The notes beneath the pieces are model-generated. The model had not been told where the DNA came from and ran no database searches. It was given only the letters and a program-made list of their open reading frames with translations. Positions 28,327-36,793 of a DNA stretch of 64,000 nt are shown here, one piece after another. Source of the stretch: an uncultured Fodinibius sp. GTDB taxonomy: Bacteria > Bacteroidota > Rhodothermia > Balneolales > Balneolaceae. The first letter of the stretch is position 1. The number at the start of each line of letters is the position of its first letter. The stretch lies in assembly GCA_913056455.1 (NCBI GenBank), contig CAJXMJ010000005.1:1-64000 (forward strand), read 5' to 3'. Both the position numbers and the translations under genes were made by a program.

Positions 28327-28360
28327 AATAAAAAAAGCGGAGGGAAAGTCCCTCCGCTTT
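28327..28360 (-). terminator. Terminator of the fadL-SGNH operon
   Basis: AAAGCGGAGGG and CCCTCCGCTTT form an 11-bp stem around AAAGT. The flanking A-tract on the plus strand gives a T-tract on the minus strand, so it stops minus-strand transcripts arriving from the SGNH gene. Confidence 0.85.
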
Positions 28361-28386
28361 GAACTCATTGAACAAATTGTTGCTTA

Positions 28387-29922
28387 TTAATTTGCAACAG
28401 GAATACCTTCAGGGATCTTAGCTATATTTATTTTATCGATGTCCCCATTGGTTGCACTGTTAAGTGTTTCAATCAGCTCATTAGTCAAGGCCGCATGAGC
28501 GCGATTAGAGGGATGGATGCCATCCAGACTAAACAAGCTTCCAATGGTAGGTTGTAAAGTTACATTGGAGTTGGGATCAGTATACTGACCATCCTGGATG
28601 ACCTGATCAAAAAAGCTGTTCACATCAAACTGGACATCACCTTGTGAGGCAATAACAGAATTGAAGATTCCGGTTACTGTATTGGTGATGCTAATCTCAT
28701 TTGTACCAAGTACAAATTGATTTGGAAATGGATTTTGGCCGCTCAATCCAAATGGCTCATCAAAATTAAATCCATCATAGTTTGCTGCGAATGTTTGGGC
28801 TTCTGCAGGACCAAACGTTTGTTCGTACTGTCCAATGGTAATTTGGGTCATGGTATCCTCAATATCTGATTGAGAATAATTCGCAACTTCCTGCTCTGTT
28901 GCTACACCAGCATTGACGATATACCCTCTCCAATAATTGAGAATAGCAGTAACGGCTGCTTCATCATATGATGGAGCCTGAGGATTAGCACTTACTCCTA
29001 TATAAGGCAGATAGTCTCGTGCCGTCAATAAGATAAGTGCTTGAGAAGGATCATCTAGATTAACTTTTTCAATCAAACCAGCCGGTTCTCGATTCTCTGA
29101 TGCTCCAATTTGCTGATTTTCCTGATAGAAAGTTTTCTGAACGACCAACCCAGGTACTTGTTCATTGCCTTCAATTTGAGCTTGGAACTGGGGGCCAACG
29201 GTTGTAGCGAAAGGAATACTTGCTACGGATGGTATATTTGCTGTGATTACTGTTGGATCAGATTCCAGATTTTGAATCTGGGTAATGGCAGAAACATACT
29301 GCGTCTGGAAATTGGATGGATTCGTAAATTGACGGAGTCCACCACTTGTTACGTAAGTAAGGATATCGTTATTTCCCAGCCAGAATGATACAACTGTTGG
29401 TTGCAATGCCTCAACAGCAGCATGGATATTTGGTAATGGGCTTTGTGGATTTCCTTCATTTACAATTAGTGGATAAAAGGGATTGTTGTCAGGGGCATTA
29501 AGGTATGCATCAACTTTTATGCCGGGTACGCCCAGATTATTATAAGGTTGACCAATTCCGGTATTAATTGGTTGTCCTTGGTTGGTATTGTATTGTGTAG
29601 TACTATTCTCCAAACTGGTAAGCTCAATACGTCCGGGATCACCAATACCAGGATTACCAATTAATGGTTGTTCAAAGTTTTCGATCTGTAGTTGACGAGC
29701 CAGTAGGTTTGGGAACGAGTACTCCTGAGCATCTTCATAGAGAGCATTGCTTTGAAAGCCTGCCGTCAAGCTGTTCCCAACCGCAACGTACGAAGAAAAG
29801 TCAGCGTCGCCGGTATCTACCGGTTCAACATCCAGATCCTGATAATCCTTACAACTTGTAATGAGCGCCAGTACAAGAACCAGCGACAGAAGTTTCTTGG
29901 AATGTTTTATTAAATAATTCAT
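28387..29922 (-). CDS. SGNH/GDSL-hydrolase-like lipoprotein (paralogue 1)
   Basis: A 511-residue predicted lipoprotein (signal peptide ending LITSC, acylated Cys24). The SGNH blocks are GNSLTAG with nucleophile Ser51 (usual Asp replaced by Asn), GNND in WLGNNDILTY and DGIHP, supplying the Asp-His pair near 472. The family acts on esters of fatty acids, sugars or polymers; this substrate is unknown. It is more than twice the length of a minimal SGNH domain, with an added central stretch (about 220-420). It lies 21 bp after the FadL-like gene, in the same operon, and is clearly related to the lipoprotein at 32219-33898. Confidence 0.8.
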   Translation of the reverse strand: MNYLIKHSKKLLSLVLVLALITSCKDYQDLDVEPVDTGDADFSSYVAVGNSLTAGFQSNALYEDAQEYSFPNLLARQLQIENFEQPLIGNPGIGDPGRIELTSLENSTTQYNTNQGQPINTGIGQPYNNLGVPGIKVDAYLNAPDNNPFYPLIVNEGNPQSPLPNIHAAVEALQPTVVSFWLGNNDILTYVTSGGLRQFTNPSNFQTQYVSAITQIQNLESDPTVITANIPSVASIPFATTVGPQFQAQIEGNEQVPGLVVQKTFYQENQQIGASENREPAGLIEKVNLDDPSQALILLTARDYLPYIGVSANPQAPSYDEAAVTAILNYWRGYIVNAGVATEQEVANYSQSDIEDTMTQITIGQYEQTFGPAEAQTFAANYDGFNFDEPFGLSGQNPFPNQFVLGTNEISITNTVTGIFNSVIASQGDVQFDVNSFFDQVIQDGQYTDPNSNVTLQPTIGSLFSLDGIHPSNRAHAALTNELIETLNSATNGDIDKINIAKIPEGIPVAN

Positions 29923-29943
29923 AGCGTAATATCCTTAATTCAA

Positions 29944-31197
29944 TTATAAATTCAGTGTGAAGCCGAGGCCGGGAAGATTGGCATAGGTGGTATAAACACC
30001 GTCAATGCCGCCTTCATGAGTGTTTGTAACTTTTCGTTGCTTAGCCCGGATAAAGATATAAGAGGCATCAACAGCAAGATAATCAGTAACCTGATAGCTT
30101 AAACCACCGGAAAATAACCAGCGATCGGAATCCGGAAGGGTTGGATCTACATAACGATCGCGAATGGGATTTTCGTCATAGGCAATACCCCCGCGGACCG
30201 TTAAGCCTTCAACAGGTAACTCAGTATATTCAGCCCCAAAACGCAGCTGCCATGAATTGTCATAATTTCGCTCGTTTACGATTGTACTGCCTCCGAGTGC
30301 AGGTATGGGTTGATCAAATTCAATAGCAAGTTCATCGTAACTTGACCAGCCCCACCAGACGTAGTCGAGCTCAGTTCTTAAGCCTTCAATGGGCTCTACA
30401 TTAAGAGCTACTACATAGCTTGCGGGTAGCGTAATTTCTGCACCGCCCTGAGCAGAGGAGGGGAAGCCGACACTCAGATTTTGAAATGTGGCATCACCTT
30501 CAAACTCAGTAGTAACTTCACTTCGATAGGTAAATCCAAGTGTAACTTTGTCTGTGGGTTCGTATTGAAGGCCGGCATTAAATCCGAAGGCAGGCTCTTT
30601 AAGATCTCCGTCCAGAGCAAACGTACCTTCAGGGGAGAAGTTGGTGACGGCGCGGCTCAGTTTTACCTTTCCGTGTGCCGCAATGCGCAAGCCGGCCCCA
30701 ACTCGGATATTACCGATCCCCGTATCGGAAAACTCGTACCCTACCGAAGGGGTAACAAAAATAGTTTCAATGCTGGTTTCTATTGAAGATCCTCTGCCTA
30801 CCCAGTCTTCAGGCCATTTGGTACCGAGTCCAAATGGAGCATAAACTCCAATTCCCGCGGTTAAATTGTTGGTAATTTGATAGGAGCCATAAAAGTTTGG
30901 AACCAAGAATTCCTGTTTCTCCATCTTGGTTTCTTGCCCCATAGGGCCTAATGGTGAGAGATTTCGAAAAGAAGAGCGGGGAGCAATAATAGTGGCGCCG
31001 CCGGTTATATTTATTCCTTCCAATCCACCTAAACCAGCGGGATTATAAAAGATAGTTGATGCGTCATCAGCATAGGCCGAAAAAGCGCCGAGCACTCCGT
31101 TGGCTCGTACACTGGCCTCATAGATCGAAAATCCGCTGGCAAATGCGGATCCTGCACACAAAAATACAAGACAAATAGTAGCAATTAGTTTTCGCAT
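29944..31197 (-). CDS. OmpP1/FadL-family outer-membrane transport protein
   Basis: A 417-residue beta-barrel protein with signal peptide MRKLIATICLVFLCAGSAFA. The mature N-terminus begins GFSIYEASVRANG, then DDASTIFYNPAGLGGLEG, the plug or hatch segment typical of the FadL/TodX/OmpP1 group, which moves long-chain fatty acids or other hydrophobic molecules across the outer membrane by lateral diffusion. Strand-rich sequence runs to the end, closing with an aromatic strand (NLPGLGFTLNL). It is the first gene of an operon with the SGNH lipoprotein. Confidence 0.85.
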   Translation of the reverse strand: MRKLIATICLVFLCAGSAFASGFSIYEASVRANGVLGAFSAYADDASTIFYNPAGLGGLEGINITGGATIIAPRSSFRNLSPLGPMGQETKMEKQEFLVPNFYGSYQITNNLTAGIGVYAPFGLGTKWPEDWVGRGSSIETSIETIFVTPSVGYEFSDTGIGNIRVGAGLRIAAHGKVKLSRAVTNFSPEGTFALDGDLKEPAFGFNAGLQYEPTDKVTLGFTYRSEVTTEFEGDATFQNLSVGFPSSAQGGAEITLPASYVVALNVEPIEGLRTELDYVWWGWSSYDELAIEFDQPIPALGGSTIVNERNYDNSWQLRFGAEYTELPVEGLTVRGGIAYDENPIRDRYVDPTLPDSDRWLFSGGLSYQVTDYLAVDASYIFIRAKQRKVTNTHEGGIDGVYTTYANLPGLGFTLNL

Positions 31198-31280
31198 AGA
31201 TTTTTGATGTTTATTTAGTTGTTGAGATGATCGTTATTCAAACTATTGAGGTGTAACCGGTTTCATTTTGCCGTTTACTC

Positions 31281-31301
31281 ATAGTTAACAGCGTTAACTA
31301 T
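31281..31301. promoter_or_regulatory. Palindromic operator candidate before the fadL-like gene
   Basis: ATAGTTAAC, AGC, GTTAACTAT is a perfect 9-bp inverted repeat with a 3-base centre, 84-104 bp before the fadL-like start and 105-125 bp before the divergent methyltransferase start. Symmetry and position suit a dimeric repressor. There is no T-run, so it is not a terminator. Confidence 0.45.
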
Positions 31302-31319
31302 AAATAATCAAAACCTTGG

Positions 31320-31327
31320 CAAATATA
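31320..31327 (-). promoter_or_regulatory. Possible -7 box for the fadL-SGNH operon
   Basis: CAAATATA on the plus strand reads TATATTTG on the minus strand, a perfect TAnnTTTG. It lies upstream of the palindrome and 123 bp before the fadL-like ATG. If used, the transcript's 5' region would include the palindrome, a common repressor arrangement. Confidence 0.35.
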
Positions 31328-31405
31328 AAAGTATCAGTTTGCAATAAGCGTACTTTTTTACTTCATTCGTGCATAAAATAATGTAAATAGCAATAAAATT
31401 GCCTT

Positions 31406-32149
31406 ATGGATTGGTTCGAAGAGTGGTTCAACAGTCCCCTTTACGAAAAACTGTATGCCGATCGGGATGAAAAGGAAGCAGAACAGCTAATTGAATTTTT
31501 AGAAGAAACCCTGCTATCAGAGCAGTATCACTCTATTCTTGATTTGGGGTGTGGCCGGGGACGACACTCGCATAACTTGGCAAAACGCGGGTATGAGGTT
31601 ACAGGTATTGACCTATCCCCGGAAGCGATAAAAACAGCGAAAGAGAAAGCCAGCGAACTTGGATTGCAAAATACGGAATTTAAGGTGCGTGATATGCGAG
31701 ATCCATTGCCCCAGAAATTTGACGCCATCGTAAACTTATTTACGACCTTCGGCTATTTTAAAAGTGACGAAGAAAATGCTTCTGTGTTGGATAGTGTCAT
31801 AAAAATGCTGAAAAAGGAGGGGCTTTTTGTGCTCGACTATCTAAATGCGGAGAAGGTAAAACAAGATTTTGTGTCCGAGGAGGAAGGAGAGTTTCAAGGA
31901 ATACAATATGAGATTAAGCGCTATATCAAAAATGGAGCAATTCATAAAGATATTGCATTTGCGGGAGATAAATTAGATAAACCCCGTGTTTACTGGGAGC
32001 GTGTGAAGTTGTATGGATTGGATTGGTTTAAAAAAGAGATGGATAAGAGAAACCTGGAGATTATAGATGTAAATGGGGATTATCAAGGCGGAAATTATGA
32101 TCCGCAGTCAAGCCCACGGTTATTGATAATTAGTAGGTTATCAAAATAA
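31406..32149 (+). CDS. Class I SAM-dependent methyltransferase
   Basis: A 247-residue cytoplasmic methyltransferase. The Rossmann motifs are [19 protein letters not shown] at about 48-66 (SAM glycine-rich loop) and [10 protein letters not shown], with later [13 protein letters not shown]. It most resembles the small unassigned methyltransferases with a C-terminal strand domain seen in many bacteria. It is a single gene on the opposite strand between the two SGNH loci, and its substrate is unknown. Its terminator is shared with the downstream convergent gene. Confidence 0.75.
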
Positions 32150-32155
32150 GAGTCG

Positions 32156-32193
32156 AAAAAAGAGAGGTCATCTCAATATTGAGATGACCTCTT
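32156..32193. terminator. Bidirectional terminator
   Basis: A perfect 30-bp palindrome at 32163-32192 (half-site AGAGGTCATCTCAAT) sits between the convergent methyltransferase and SGNH lipoprotein genes. The minus strand continues into CTTTTTTC; the plus strand has only CTTTATAAG, so it works better for the lipoprotein side. Confidence 0.85.
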
Positions 32194-32218
32194 TATAAGT
32201 GTTATATCTGGGAAGAAT

Positions 32219-33898
32219 TTATTTTACAGAAATTCCGAAGGTGAAATTTTCTGATACTCTTTTCTCCTGCTGTTGGCTTACACAATTTCCTGCACAAAGC
32301 TGGACGCTTGGTAAATCAAGTACATCTACTTCCGGAATACTCGCTCCGAATGCGCTTTCAATAACACGGATAAACTCATTAGCCAAAATGGCATTTCCTC
32401 TTGGGTTGGGATGGATGCCGTCCGTGGAAAATACGCCATTGGGAGAAAAATCGGGCTGTAGTAGCGTACCCTGAACACGGATTCCCAACTCACCGTCAAC
32501 GCCAAATAGGTCCGCAAAAGCACCCAAATTGGTATTGGGGTTTCCAGGAAAACCGGCATTGATATCGAAAAGTGCCAACCGGTCGGAGTTTTGGGCAACA
32601 GTGGTGGCAATAATTGTATTAAAGGCTGTGGTTCTGCTTTGAATTTGCTGTTGTTCAGGGACGGTCAAGTAGTAAGCATCACCAAAAGCCGACTCCTGCG
32701 AGTCATACCCCAAAGGAATAACCACGCCTATGGTAGTTGGTGTCTGACTTTGTGGATTTAACTCTGTCCCCAGCACGGCTCCGGCTGATAAGGTAACCAG
32801 TTCATTGGCATTTAGTGGACGTGATTGTTCATATGGTTTCAAAGCTTGGCGTTGTTCTGGAGGTAGACCCAGAGCGTCAAATTCATTATCTAGCTTGGGC
32901 AAGTCAGGATCATTGACTAAAATAGGATTGGATCCTTCTTGGTAATTAACCTTTCGGGCATCCATATCCTCTTGAGAGCGATTAGGGAATTGGTCAGCTA
33001 CTGCTTGCAGGGCAGCATTGACACTGGCTAATCCCTGATTGAGTTGTGTTGCTTCTTCGGCCGATAACTCTACTGCATCATAGGAAACTGCTTGGAAAAA
33101 GGGGACCGTAGAAACAGGGGGGATTGTTGCTACGACACCACTTGCGGTGGTATTGTTCATTAGTTGACTTATAGTCGTAGTAAAATAGTTTTCAAAATCC
33201 TGCTCCGATGTTAAAATATTAGGATTTGATGCTCCTGATACTGCGTATCCCAACACATCATTGTTCCCAATCCAAAGTGTAAAAAATGAAGGTTGTGTGG
33301 CGACCGCATCTCCCAGTATGGTTGATGAACCTGGATTTGAAGCAAATCGAGCATAAAAGGGATTAAACGCAGGGTCCGACTGTGGCCCACCGGTAGCAGG
33401 AGTTAACAATTGACCAACAAGTATCCCGGGTACACCAAAATTGTTGAGTTCACCGGTATCTCCTTCGTAGGGAGTGATTTCATCGCCTCCTACTGTCGGG
33501 GATGGGCCCGGAATACTGGTATCCAGCTTATATCGACCTAAAATCGGCCCTCCCTGCGGTTGTTCAACGGACGTATTAAACCCGAGTTCAGAATTAATAT
33601 CAGGCTGGTTAAAATTGCCGGGGGCTCCCGCATATTGCATTTGCTGGTGGAGGAGAGCAGCAAGGGAATATTCTTGTCCCATGTTATAAAGCGCTCCGTC
33701 CATGTAACCGGCCGTCAACGAATTACCGATGGCTATATAGTTGCTGAAATCAGCTGACCCCGCATCTCCGGAAATAGGTTCGGGGGTTGGATTTTCTTCG
33801 AGCTGATCTTCAACAAGAGAATCATAACTGCCTTCACATGAAAACAAAAAGGCAGCGATAAATAATAAAGCAAATAATGTTTTTAAATAAGATATCAT
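32219..33898 (-). CDS. SGNH/GDSL-hydrolase-like lipoprotein (paralogue 2)
   Basis: A 559-residue predicted lipoprotein (signal peptide ending FLFSC, Cys21) paralogous to the 28387-29922 protein: both have DFS-Y-A-GNSLTAG near 50-65, GQEYS/QEYS, IGNND and DGIHP-N/SRG/A in the same order. Ser60 is the predicted nucleophile, and the DGIHP pair near 510 supplies Asp and His. It has longer Asn/Pro-rich insertions than paralogue 1. It lies 12 bp after the TonB-dependent receptor gene and would be cotranscribed. Function, probably surface esterase or lipase, is inferred from the motifs and neighbour. Confidence 0.8.
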   Translation of the reverse strand: MISYLKTLFALLFIAAFLFSCEGSYDSLVEDQLEENPTPEPISGDAGSADFSNYIAIGNSLTAGYMDGALYNMGQEYSLAALLHQQMQYAGAPGNFNQPDINSELGFNTSVEQPQGGPILGRYKLDTSIPGPSPTVGGDEITPYEGDTGELNNFGVPGILVGQLLTPATGGPQSDPAFNPFYARFASNPGSSTILGDAVATQPSFFTLWIGNNDVLGYAVSGASNPNILTSEQDFENYFTTTISQLMNNTTASGVVATIPPVSTVPFFQAVSYDAVELSAEEATQLNQGLASVNAALQAVADQFPNRSQEDMDARKVNYQEGSNPILVNDPDLPKLDNEFDALGLPPEQRQALKPYEQSRPLNANELVTLSAGAVLGTELNPQSQTPTTIGVVIPLGYDSQESAFGDAYYLTVPEQQQIQSRTTAFNTIIATTVAQNSDRLALFDINAGFPGNPNTNLGAFADLFGVDGELGIRVQGTLLQPDFSPNGVFSTDGIHPNPRGNAILANEFIRVIESAFGASIPEVDVLDLPSVQLCAGNCVSQQQEKRVSENFTFGISVK

Positions 33899-33910
33899 GG
33901 TATCAGTAGT

Positions 33911-36793
33911 TTAATTCATGAATTGATCGAAAGTGAAGGAGATCAAATAGATGGCTCCCAGCCGAGGGTTGCCAAATGATGTCACATGGTGGCTGTTTAA
34001 AATATTACTGCCGCTCAATTTTATTGAGGTATTCAATGATGGCAGTCGATAGCTTATTTGGGCATCAAGTGTGCCATAGGCATCGATCACACCTTTTCCG
34101 AATGACGATTCCCAAAGGAAGGCATCCTGCCAGCGATACACCACATTAAACCCGATATTTGGGGTGACTTTACGATTTTCTAAGTTGATGTTATATCGCC
34201 ATTCGGGAGTATTATATTCGGCGCGAAAACCTTGATCAATGAGATCCTGTTGCGAGATCAGCTTATTAAACGCCATGTTTCCTCCCAATGAATACCCGTT
34301 ACCGATTACGTATTTGGCTTCAAATGCAAAGCCATGCGCTTCAACGGTACCATCAGCATTAACATCGACACCGTACGATTGCAGACGTCCATTGGGCACG
34401 CTATTGTTGATAATGTCCTCTTTGCCGCTGTCGGAATCTGGATTGAAACCCGGAGCAGGATCGAAACCGTCACGAGCATCTTCATTTCCTCGTTCATTGA
34501 TATCAACAGCTTGGGTAAACTGGATTTCGGCGATGAAGTCTTCATAGGCACTGTAATAGTAATAAGCGTCTAAGAATAACTTGTTATTGATGAGTGTCTT
34601 GTAGCCAATTTCGAATGAATTCACCTTTTCGGTTTCAAACTCATCAAATGTAACCGGTTCCAGCAAATCACGAGCTTCGGCCATTGATTGCCCGGCATTA
34701 AGAGCTCCCCGTGCTTCTTCGATACTGTCTTCGTAATAAACAGTATTGGTTTCAAAGTTATAACGATCGATAAGCACCGGATTGCTACCGATCAGCCGTC
34801 GAGTTACCACATCCAGGTCAATCAACTGGGTTTGTGTACTGGGGATCCGGAAGCCTCGCTGGAAGGAGGCTCTGATATTATGATTGTTGGCAATTGTAAA
34901 AACGGCTGAAAATCGAGGACTGAACTGCCCGTCGAAATATTCGTTTTTATCATATCGAAGCGATCCCTGGAGATCTAATTTTTCGTCAGCTAATGTTTTT
35001 GATGCTTGCACGTAAGCCCCAAACTCATCGATATCGAACTCTTCGCCATTATCTTGGAGGGCAAAAAGGGTGCCTTCTGAATTTAAGTCATACCTGCGGA
35101 CATTACCTCCCACAATTAGTTCCACAGTAGAAGGATCAATAATATCTGCGAAGTTGTATTTTGTTTCGGCATGCCATAATCCTGTCTTCTCGATAAACAG
35201 GGCGCCGCCTTCAGAAATGGGTGCGTTTCTCAGTTCATTGGAGAGCGTTTGGAATCCCTGGCTGTCCGGTTGAGGTTGCGCCTGATTCCCTGCGACACGG
35301 GCTTGGGCATGCGCTTCTTCAACGGTTGCTCCCTGTGTACGAGCATTTGCAAATGTTTGAAAATAAGCCGGTACAAAAGTTTCTACGTTAATAAGTGTAG
35401 CCAGGGTGTTGGCAGCATAGGTATCGCCTGCATCTTCTTGGGTGGTATAGGCGCGGACAAAGAAATTAGGATTTTTGATCTCAAATTTAGCCGTCCAGAT
35501 ATTAAAATCATCAAGAACGAAACGGTCGTTGGCTGTATATACTGAACTTCCGGTACCCCAGTTAAATTGACCTAAGATCTCATAGTCATCAGTTATACGA
35601 TAATGTAGTGCAGAACCAAGTTTTAAGCTCTCGGAGGTGTTATCTACGAAGGATGATTCAGGAAATCCTGTGGGCGTAAAAGCTCCGGCTGAGCCGTCGG
35701 GCAATAAATTTCTGATGGCAGCTACATCTTGGTTGCCTGCTGCGATCTGCTGGTCGGCAATTTGGCCGATGGTAAGCAGTTGGTTCCCATAAACGTTAAC
35801 TCCATTATAAACACGATTACCGTTGCGTGAGGTAGCGCCGCGTTCTACGACACCGTATGAGGCTGGACCGGTATCGCGCGTGTCTTGGGCCACAAAGTCT
35901 TGAGCACGCAAATAGGAGAAATTGAATTTATAAGCGAACTTGTTATTTATGGCGTTGGCATAACGCAGTCCGTAGTCTTGATATAGAGAGGGATCTTCAA
36001 CATTGGAGTCGAAGTGATTTGCTCCCATTTTAACTTGTGCCGAGAGCCCTTGGTACTTAAACGGACTTTTGCTGTTCAGCAGAAGAATTCCGTTGATAGC
36101 ATTTGGGCCGTAGAGCGCTGATGCCACACCCGGAATCAATTCTGCACTTTCCAAATCAAGCTCGGGAATACCCACTACATTACCAACAGGGAAGTTTAAT
36201 CCCGGGGCCTGATTATCAATTCCGTCAATAAGTTGAACAAAGCGAGTGTTGCCATTAGCATTAAATCCACGGGTATTGATCGATTTAAATGTGATACTCT
36301 GTGTGCTAAAATCGACGCCCTTTAGATTGGCAAGAGATTCATAAAAGCTGGGTGATGCAGATTGTTGTATACTTATTGCATCCAACTTTTCGATGGAGAC
36401 GGGAGATTCTAGAATATTTTCTTCTACTCGTGATGCAGATACAACGACCTCATCTCCTACAATTGCTGCTTCTGAAAGTTCGACTGTTAAGTCAGTCACT
36501 GTGCTTTCAGTAATTTGGACCTCTTTAGTTTTAAAACCCACCATGGTAAATACGAGTGTCAGTGGGGGATCTTGTTGTGTATTAAGCGAAAACTCCCCAT
36601 TCGTTTCCGTGGATGTTCCTATTACTTTTCCCTTTACGCTTACATTGACACCTCCCAGCGGGGAGTTATCTTCGGCATCGACAACGGATCCCGAAATTTG
36701 TGTTTGAGCGTAAGCCTGTGTGGTAATTACCAGAGTGAATGAAAAGACCATCACCAGTGCCACCGATAACTTTTTGAACATTGCTCTATTCAT
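33911..36793 (-). CDS. TonB-dependent outer-membrane receptor with carboxypeptidase-regulatory-like domain
   Basis: A 960-residue protein: a signal peptide (to about 29, TQAYAQ), a carboxypeptidase-regulatory-like domain at about 32-115 (GSVVDAEDNSPLGGVNV, then FTMVGFKTKEVQI), then a plug (residues about 125-240, with ENILESPVSIEKLD and GVASALYGPNAINGI) and a beta-barrel ending FDQFMN. It lacks a SusD-like partner gene, so it is not a standard polysaccharide utilisation locus. The substrate may be lipid-like given its SGNH partner, but siderophore or cobalamin uptake is not excluded. It is the first gene of its operon. Confidence 0.85.
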   Translation of the reverse strand: MNRAMFKKLSVALVMVFSFTLVITTQAYAQTQISGSVVDAEDNSPLGGVNVSVKGKVIGTSTETNGEFSLNTQQDPPLTLVFTMVGFKTKEVQITESTVTDLTVELSEAAIVGDEVVVSASRVEENILESPVSIEKLDAISIQQSASPSFYESLANLKGVDFSTQSITFKSINTRGFNANGNTRFVQLIDGIDNQAPGLNFPVGNVVGIPELDLESAELIPGVASALYGPNAINGILLLNSKSPFKYQGLSAQVKMGANHFDSNVEDPSLYQDYGLRYANAINNKFAYKFNFSYLRAQDFVAQDTRDTGPASYGVVERGATSRNGNRVYNGVNVYGNQLLTIGQIADQQIAAGNQDVAAIRNLLPDGSAGAFTPTGFPESSFVDNTSESLKLGSALHYRITDDYEILGQFNWGTGSSVYTANDRFVLDDFNIWTAKFEIKNPNFFVRAYTTQEDAGDTYAANTLATLINVETFVPAYFQTFANARTQGATVEEAHAQARVAGNQAQPQPDSQGFQTLSNELRNAPISEGGALFIEKTGLWHAETKYNFADIIDPSTVELIVGGNVRRYDLNSEGTLFALQDNGEEFDIDEFGAYVQASKTLADEKLDLQGSLRYDKNEYFDGQFSPRFSAVFTIANNHNIRASFQRGFRIPSTQTQLIDLDVVTRRLIGSNPVLIDRYNFETNTVYYEDSIEEARGALNAGQSMAEARDLLEPVTFDEFETEKVNSFEIGYKTLINNKLFLDAYYYYSAYEDFIAEIQFTQAVDINERGNEDARDGFDPAPGFNPDSDSGKEDIINNSVPNGRLQSYGVDVNADGTVEAHGFAFEAKYVIGNGYSLGGNMAFNKLISQQDLIDQGFRAEYNTPEWRYNINLENRKVTPNIGFNVVYRWQDAFLWESSFGKGVIDAYGTLDAQISYRLPSLNTSIKLSGSNILNSHHVTSFGNPRLGAIYLISFTFDQFMN

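Follow-up and report, generated by a model that had tools for sequence, protein, structure and literature searches.

The window analysed here (the whole 64,000-nucleotide stretch of DNA from an uncultured Fodinibius sp.) carries two outer-membrane barrels of different classes, one of the FadL family and one TonB-dependent receptor (TBDT), each accompanied by a lipoprotein of the SGNH hydrolase family. This raises the question of what one kind of surface lipoprotein has to do with two kinds of channel. An earlier note had taken the two operons for a two-branch surface esterase and uptake system for lipid-like or polyester substrates; the four reading frames and both operons lie where that note had placed them, and their Pfam classes agree (Table 1).

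Organization of the two operons

The gaps within the pairs are short (21 bp between the FadL and SGNH1 genes and 12 bp between the TBDT and SGNH2 genes), and a strong terminator-like hairpin lies 3' of each SGNH gene, so each barrel-SGNH unit is most simply interpreted as a two-gene operon. As to the divergent methyltransferase gene between them, in relatives it adjoins FadL-only, TBDT-only and double loci, and is thus a neighbour outside the module. The longest reading frame of a pyrF-like gene (start at 28375, TTG) crosses the hairpin that follows SGNH1 (window 28334-28375), and the true start of this gene is therefore probably an internal ATG.

Table 1. Features of the two operons in the window, with the codons of the lipobox and active-site residues
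Feature	Position	Strand	Pfam
SGNH1, FadL-linked SGNH surface lipoprotein (predicted), 511 aa	28387..29922	-	PF00657
FadL/Toluene_X-family outer-membrane barrel, 417 aa	29944..31197	-	PF03349
SGNH2, TBDT-linked SGNH surface lipoprotein (predicted), 559 aa	32219..33898	-	PF00657
TonB-dependent receptor (TBDT), 960 aa: CarboxypepD_reg-like domain, plug, barrel	33911..36793	-	PF13715, PF07715, PF00593
Terminator-like hairpin, 12 pairs, end of FadL-SGNH1 operon	28334..28360	-	
Terminator-like hairpin, 13 pairs, end of TBDT-SGNH2 operon	32163..32192	-	
SAM-dependent methyltransferase, divergent, between the operons	31406..32149	+	
SGNH1 lipobox Cys24 codon	29853-29851	-	
SGNH1 Ser51 codon	29772-29770	-	
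SGNH1 Asn185 codon	29370-29368	-	
SGNH1 Asp467 codon	28524-28522	-	
SGNH1 His470 codon	28515-28513	-	
SGNH2 lipobox Cys21 codon	33838-33836	-	
SGNH2 Ser60 codon	33721-33719	-	
SGNH2 Asn213 codon	33262-33260	-	
SGNH2 Asp493 codon	32422-32420	-	
SGNH2 His496 codon	32413-32411	-	

The SGNH lipoproteins

Both lipoproteins exceed the PF00657 cut-off of 23.6 bits (SGNH1, 27.3 bits; SGNH2, 51.7 bits, 1.6e-13) and align with each other at 34% over 277 aa (E 4e-31), with a common block order: the block I serine at 51 and 60, GNND at 183-186 and 211-214, and DGIHP from 467 and 493 in SGNH1 and SGNH2, respectively. The block I serine, block II glycine, block III asparagine and block V Asp-x-x-His are all present in SGNH1 (S51/G131/N185/D467/H470), and the active-site residues of SGNH2 (S60/N213/D493/H496) occupy invariant alignment columns. 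Throughout the family the Ser, Asn, Asp and His residues are complete in 158 of 167 members, which indicates that catalysis is under selection.

The lipobox cysteine is likewise retained (165/167), and 142 of the 165 members bearing it have at least two acidic residues among the six that follow, a feature used as a criterion for surface export in PMC12578637. The window pair continues from this position as CKDYQDL and CEGSYDS, and judging from these signals SGNH1 and SGNH2 are lipoproteins with a lipobox and an acidic export-type signal, for which export to the cell surface is predicted.

Several members depart from this pattern. In the window's own family, a TBDT-linked clade (L076:4608-9619, with three tandem SGNH copies; L080:4185-5702; L082:5123-6643) has lost Ser, Asn and/or His while retaining the pairing, and its proteins are likely to be binding-only caps. 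A Calditrichaceae locus (L185:6872-11210) has the tandem order FadL-SGNH-FadL-SGNH, its second SGNH protein being devoid of Ser and Asn; the active site is also incomplete in a member from locus L141.

Sequence searches say little about the substrate. The PHROGs search gave no match, and among solved structures sequence comparison found no relative of SGNH1 and one insignificant match for SGNH2; the family profile matched acetylxylan esterases and other SGNH proteins so weakly that the substrate is not readable from homology. The structure models (AlphaFold, AF2; mean pLDDT 90.7 for SGNH1 and 76.7 for SGNH2) are more telling. The plain Foldseek search with the SGNH1 model gave no match at E <= 0.001, and VIA-align, run on the SGNH1 Foldseek candidates, produced clear SGNH matches. 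For both proteins the best of these is the GDSL esterase of Photobacterium J15 (5xtu), at Z 18.3 over 229 residues and 3.2 A for SGNH1 and Z 17.8 over 252 residues and 4.1 A for SGNH2; 222 and 220 chains, respectively, reach Z >= 8. The next matches, all within about 2-3 Z units of it, are the Vibrio thermolabile hemolysin (in a structure with fatty acids), acetylxylan esterases, PlaA of Legionella, EstA, ChoE and acyloxyacyl hydrolase (AOAH). The modelling proposed earlier as a check thus bears out the assignment: together with the intact Ser/Gly/Asn/Asp-His site, the models place SGNH1 and SGNH2 securely in the three-layer SGNH fold, that of the lipolytic SGNH enzymes. A lipid substrate is not proven by this, since lipid esterases and carbohydrate acetylesterases are almost tied in Z. 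Only about half of each protein is aligned, which indicates that large insertions set this family apart.

The barrels

The window FadL protein matches PF03349 over residues 13-414 (230 bits, 4.4e-68; cut-off 29.7). In the search with the profile of its group the best matches were the FadL proteins of Pseudomonas aeruginosa and Escherichia coli, and chains of BAM complexes, which from their PDB entries we take to be BamG, matched weakly. Positions 21-412 of the profile align to 1-421 of the E. coli FadL chain, and the group begins at mature residue 1 of FadL, the mature window protein reading SGFSIYE...NPAG. Assignment to BamG was rejected: the NF053685 score is 30.8 bits against a cut-off of 250, and the protein has no N-terminal extension of about 10 residues through the lateral gate, the feature that separates BamG from the transporting FadLs (PMC12578637). 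From this N-terminus and the score far under the BamG cut-off, the window FadL looks like a transporter. It was also rejected as AupA (model score 14.6 against 840).

The TBDT falls short of SusC (TIGR04056, 84.1 against a cut-off of 368.25), and SusD families are absent from the Pfam matches of SGNH2. The SGNH-linked TBDTs form one lineage, a clade with 100% support in which 46 of the 48 rows are SGNH-linked and which includes none of the 20 other TBDTs sampled from the window's genome; the SGNH-linked TBDT of Flavobacteriaceae scores 500 bits with the window TBDT and the next best 127.

The window's genome (3.28 Mb) encodes no SGNH proteins of this family other than these two, besides two PF03349 proteins and 28 TBDT plug-domain matches. 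Its second FadL-like protein (496 aa; L148:3900-5390, on a contig, G000 C1, of about 488 kb) has no SGNH partner, carries a long N-terminal extension and resembles the PorV family weakly. Two GDSL proteins are encoded nearby, and neither gene adjoins that of the FadL-like protein.

Conservation of the pairing and its genomic setting

Whether the pairing is conserved, a condition that the earlier note had set for its reading, could be checked by co-occurrence in two samples: SGNH-family neighbourhoods taken within the window's family and throughout its phylum (sample 1), and 80 named loci of a GTDB-wide scan, where at least 577 stretches encode a relative (sample 2). For a pair to be counted, the SGNH gene had to follow a FadL-type or TBDT gene on the same strand at no more than 100 bp. 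Such an arrangement was found for 79 of 87 SGNH genes in sample 1 and, among the matches listed, for 77 of 81 in sample 2, as compared with 3/649 and 5/726 for the other genes of the same loci; the samples share a few genomes and are thus not fully independent. The pairing is conserved far beyond the window's genus.

Among the matches listed in the GTDB-wide sample, 63 partners are FadL proteins and 11 are TBDTs, a ratio biased to FadL by the use of a FadL-linked protein as the reference of the scan. In these matches the FadL form occurs in Balneolaceae, Ignavibacteria, Melioribacter, Kryptonium, Chlorobiota and Calditrichota, as well as in Hymenobacter/Rufibacter/Pontibacter, Chryseobacterium, Halpernia, Aquimarina and Mesonia; the TBDT form occurs in Balneolaceae and their order, in Flavobacteriaceae (Flavobacterium, Winogradskyella, Bizionia, Mesoflavibacter) and in a few others. 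Across 198 genomes of the phylum, a profile search found the SGNH family in 88, four of them by weak partial matches, so that 84 clearly hold it.

Two kinds of locus look different. In one family (f31; L098, L101, L102, L113) an SGNH clade has no barrel directly upstream and forms a solo branch. In L210 and L222 (Croceivirga) and in L122 an unlabelled reading frame of about 257 aa takes the FadL position, 110-135 bp upstream of the SGNH gene; the L122 copy reads as an alpha/beta hydrolase.

The genes around the pairs, whose identities were read from their sequences, are of a housekeeping kind. In the window's family the TBDT-SGNH pair is followed by GrpE and DnaJ (L072), in a Flavobacteriaceae-like family it lies between GlmS and AtpD (L126), and in families f17 and f35 the pair stands between biotin carboxylase/BCCP (AccC-AccB) and SSB/GldE-like genes. 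These surroundings are vertically inherited, which sets them apart from polysaccharide or polyester utilisation loci that move horizontally, and they speak for a general function and not for a locus of niche catabolism. The polyester substrates proposed earlier find no evidence in their favour among these neighbours or in the rest of this analysis. Nor is a dedicated two-branch system supported in the form proposed: of about 75 sampled genomes with neighbourhoods most have one branch, and both occur in five (the window's, three others of its genus and one of family f21, L112).

Evolution and exchange of the barrel

The tree of 88 SGNH proteins (40 FadL-linked and 39 TBDT-linked rows) is strongly clustered by partner, yet its starred branches require the partner to have changed at least 4 to 5 times. 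SGNH1 groups with FadL-linked and SGNH2 with TBDT-linked proteins of other genera and families, in deeply separated clades, which identifies the two as old paralogues, as far as the tree can tell. The earlier note is right as to the shared block order; its word 'duplicates', however, suggests a local duplication, and the tree speaks against a local or recent tandem duplication.

One exchange is seen in family f35. In the fixed gene order AccC-BCCP-[barrel]-SGNH-SSB-GldE the barrel is a TBDT in f35 and a FadL protein in its relatives; this TBDT differs from the usual one, its nearest counterpart being another TBDT of the window's genome. The barrel was exchanged here at a fixed chromosomal site and the SGNH gene was kept, which argues for related ligands of the two barrel classes. 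With some reservation, and with rather less than even confidence, we suppose a core device of several phyla (Bacteroidota, Balneolota, Ignavibacteriota, Chlorobiota, Calditrichota), in which the SGNH lipoprotein would be the standard cap for either of two barrel classes that are not related to each other, the passive FadL channel and the TonB-energised TBDT, and the barrel would have been exchanged repeatedly around a constant enzyme, once at the same site.

Proposed mechanism and alternatives

Each operon might encode a two-part outer-membrane device composed of a transmembrane barrel of the FadL or TBDT class and an SGNH-fold lipoprotein. The latter would be exported to the cell surface, be lipid-anchored beside or over the mouth of the barrel as a cap, and cleave a lipophilic, probably lipid-like ligand at an ester bond. 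What is released would then enter through the barrel of the same operon, by the lateral-diffusion route of FadL in one branch and by TonB-driven import in the other. We infer the physical complex, the esterase activity, the substrate class and the direction of uptake, and give about even chances to the core of this proposal, namely that the capping lipoprotein cleaves an ester-linked, probably lipid-like ligand whose product the barrel takes up. The pairing and the two interchangeable channel types point to a widespread surface module, probably for the use of ester-bound lipids. Acyl-CoA dehydrogenase is encoded in all 84 SGNH-positive genomes of the 198, and none of the 45 genomes devoid of it has the SGNH family; this co-occurrence backs the lipid reading weakly, being confounded by phylogeny, as the listed negatives nearly all belong to family f18. 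The TBDT-linked clade that lost its active site and the barrel-less f31 clade count against the proposal.

The housekeeping neighbours could also mean envelope maintenance in place of nutrient uptake, and this is the main competing explanation, which we nevertheless consider rather unlikely. The SGNH protein would then act on lipids of the cell's own surface (LPS, phospholipid, pigment or capsule esters), deacylating or de-esterifying them, and the freed chain would be removed or positioned by the barrel. Vertical inheritance beside GrpE-DnaJ, GlmS-AtpD and AccC-AccB...SSB, the resemblance in fold to acyloxyacyl hydrolase and PlaA, and a copy number of one or two per genome rather than many agree with it; TBDTs, however, are import devices and odd partners for such a task, and the patchy presence (84/198 genomes) argues against an essential role.

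An assembly or structural role like that of BamG-BamH, with the barrel and the lipoprotein as subunits of a machine in the outer membrane and the SGNH fold as a scaffold, appears improbable. BamG, of the FadL family, binds the lipoprotein BamH, and Bacteroides thetaiotaomicron has a paralogous BamG2-BamH2 operon (PMC12578637); the pseudo-SGNH copies beside TBDTs would also fit a scaffold. On the other hand, the window FadL scores far under the BamG cut-off and lacks the N-terminal extension, and nearly all members of the SGNH family retain a complete active site.

No more probable is a TBDT branch working as a SusCD/BtuBG-like pair for a specific ligand (a glycolipid, siderophore or vitamin ester), the SGNH protein being mainly a binding lid and lipids passing through the FadL branch alone. 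The order of TBDT and surface lipoprotein genes is that of SusCD and BtuBG, and the clade devoid of the triad keeps the pairing without catalysis, but most TBDT-linked SGNH proteins have a full active site, and at one chromosomal site the same SGNH ortholog is partnered in some genomes by FadL and in others by a TBDT. Finally, chance adjacency of unrelated outer-membrane genes, conceivable where TBDT genes are as common as in the window's genome, can practically be dismissed, as the association is kept across phyla and far above background.

Comparison with known systems

Barrel-lipoprotein complexes such as SusCD, BtuBG and BamGH are central to the feeding and surface building of Bacteroidota. 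A hydrolase-bearing pair kept across several phyla beside housekeeping genes would be a general surface device for lipids or esters, which annotation as 'outer membrane protein' and 'SGNH hydrolase' hides; and a constant lipoprotein with barrels of changing class would offer a natural experiment on the demands that a surface cap makes on its barrel. In accordance with the earlier note, which knew of no described system with this pairing, a full-text search of the open-licence literature found no description of a FadL-SGNH or TBDT-SGNH pair.

The nearest structural analogies are BamG-BamH for the FadL branch and SusCD/BtuBG for the TBDT branch. BamG-BamH and BamG2-BamH2 (PMC12578637, PMC12611786) resemble the window pairs in combining a FadL-family barrel with a surface lipoprotein, and BamG2-BamH2, too, is a putative two-gene operon. 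BamG and BamH, however, are subunits of BAM, whereas the window lipoprotein has an intact SGNH hydrolase site and the window FadL is closer to transporters; the SGNH family profile (A2) matched no BAM chain among solved PDB chains at E <= 0.01, BamH lying outside the alignment. In SusC-SusD and BtuB-BtuG the TBDT and surface lipoprotein genes also stand side by side, but the lid is SusD or BtuG rather than an SGNH enzyme. The alkane uptake system AupA-AupB of Marinobacter shares with the FadL branch a FadL-family protein, a two-gene operon and a lipophilic substrate, and differs in that its second protein, AupB, is located in the inner membrane and has no hydrolase (PMC5989066). As for the enzyme, EstA-type autotransporters, the Vibrio thermolabile hemolysin, PlaA and the J15 esterase share its SGNH fold and active site. 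In EstA, too, a barrel holds the enzyme at the surface; in the window the barrel is encoded by a separate FadL or TBDT gene, the enzyme is predicted to be lipid-anchored, and its insertions are larger. A barrel with a surface lipoprotein is thus a known arrangement, and what is apparently new here is that the lipoprotein is an enzyme and that its barrel can be of either of two exchangeable classes.
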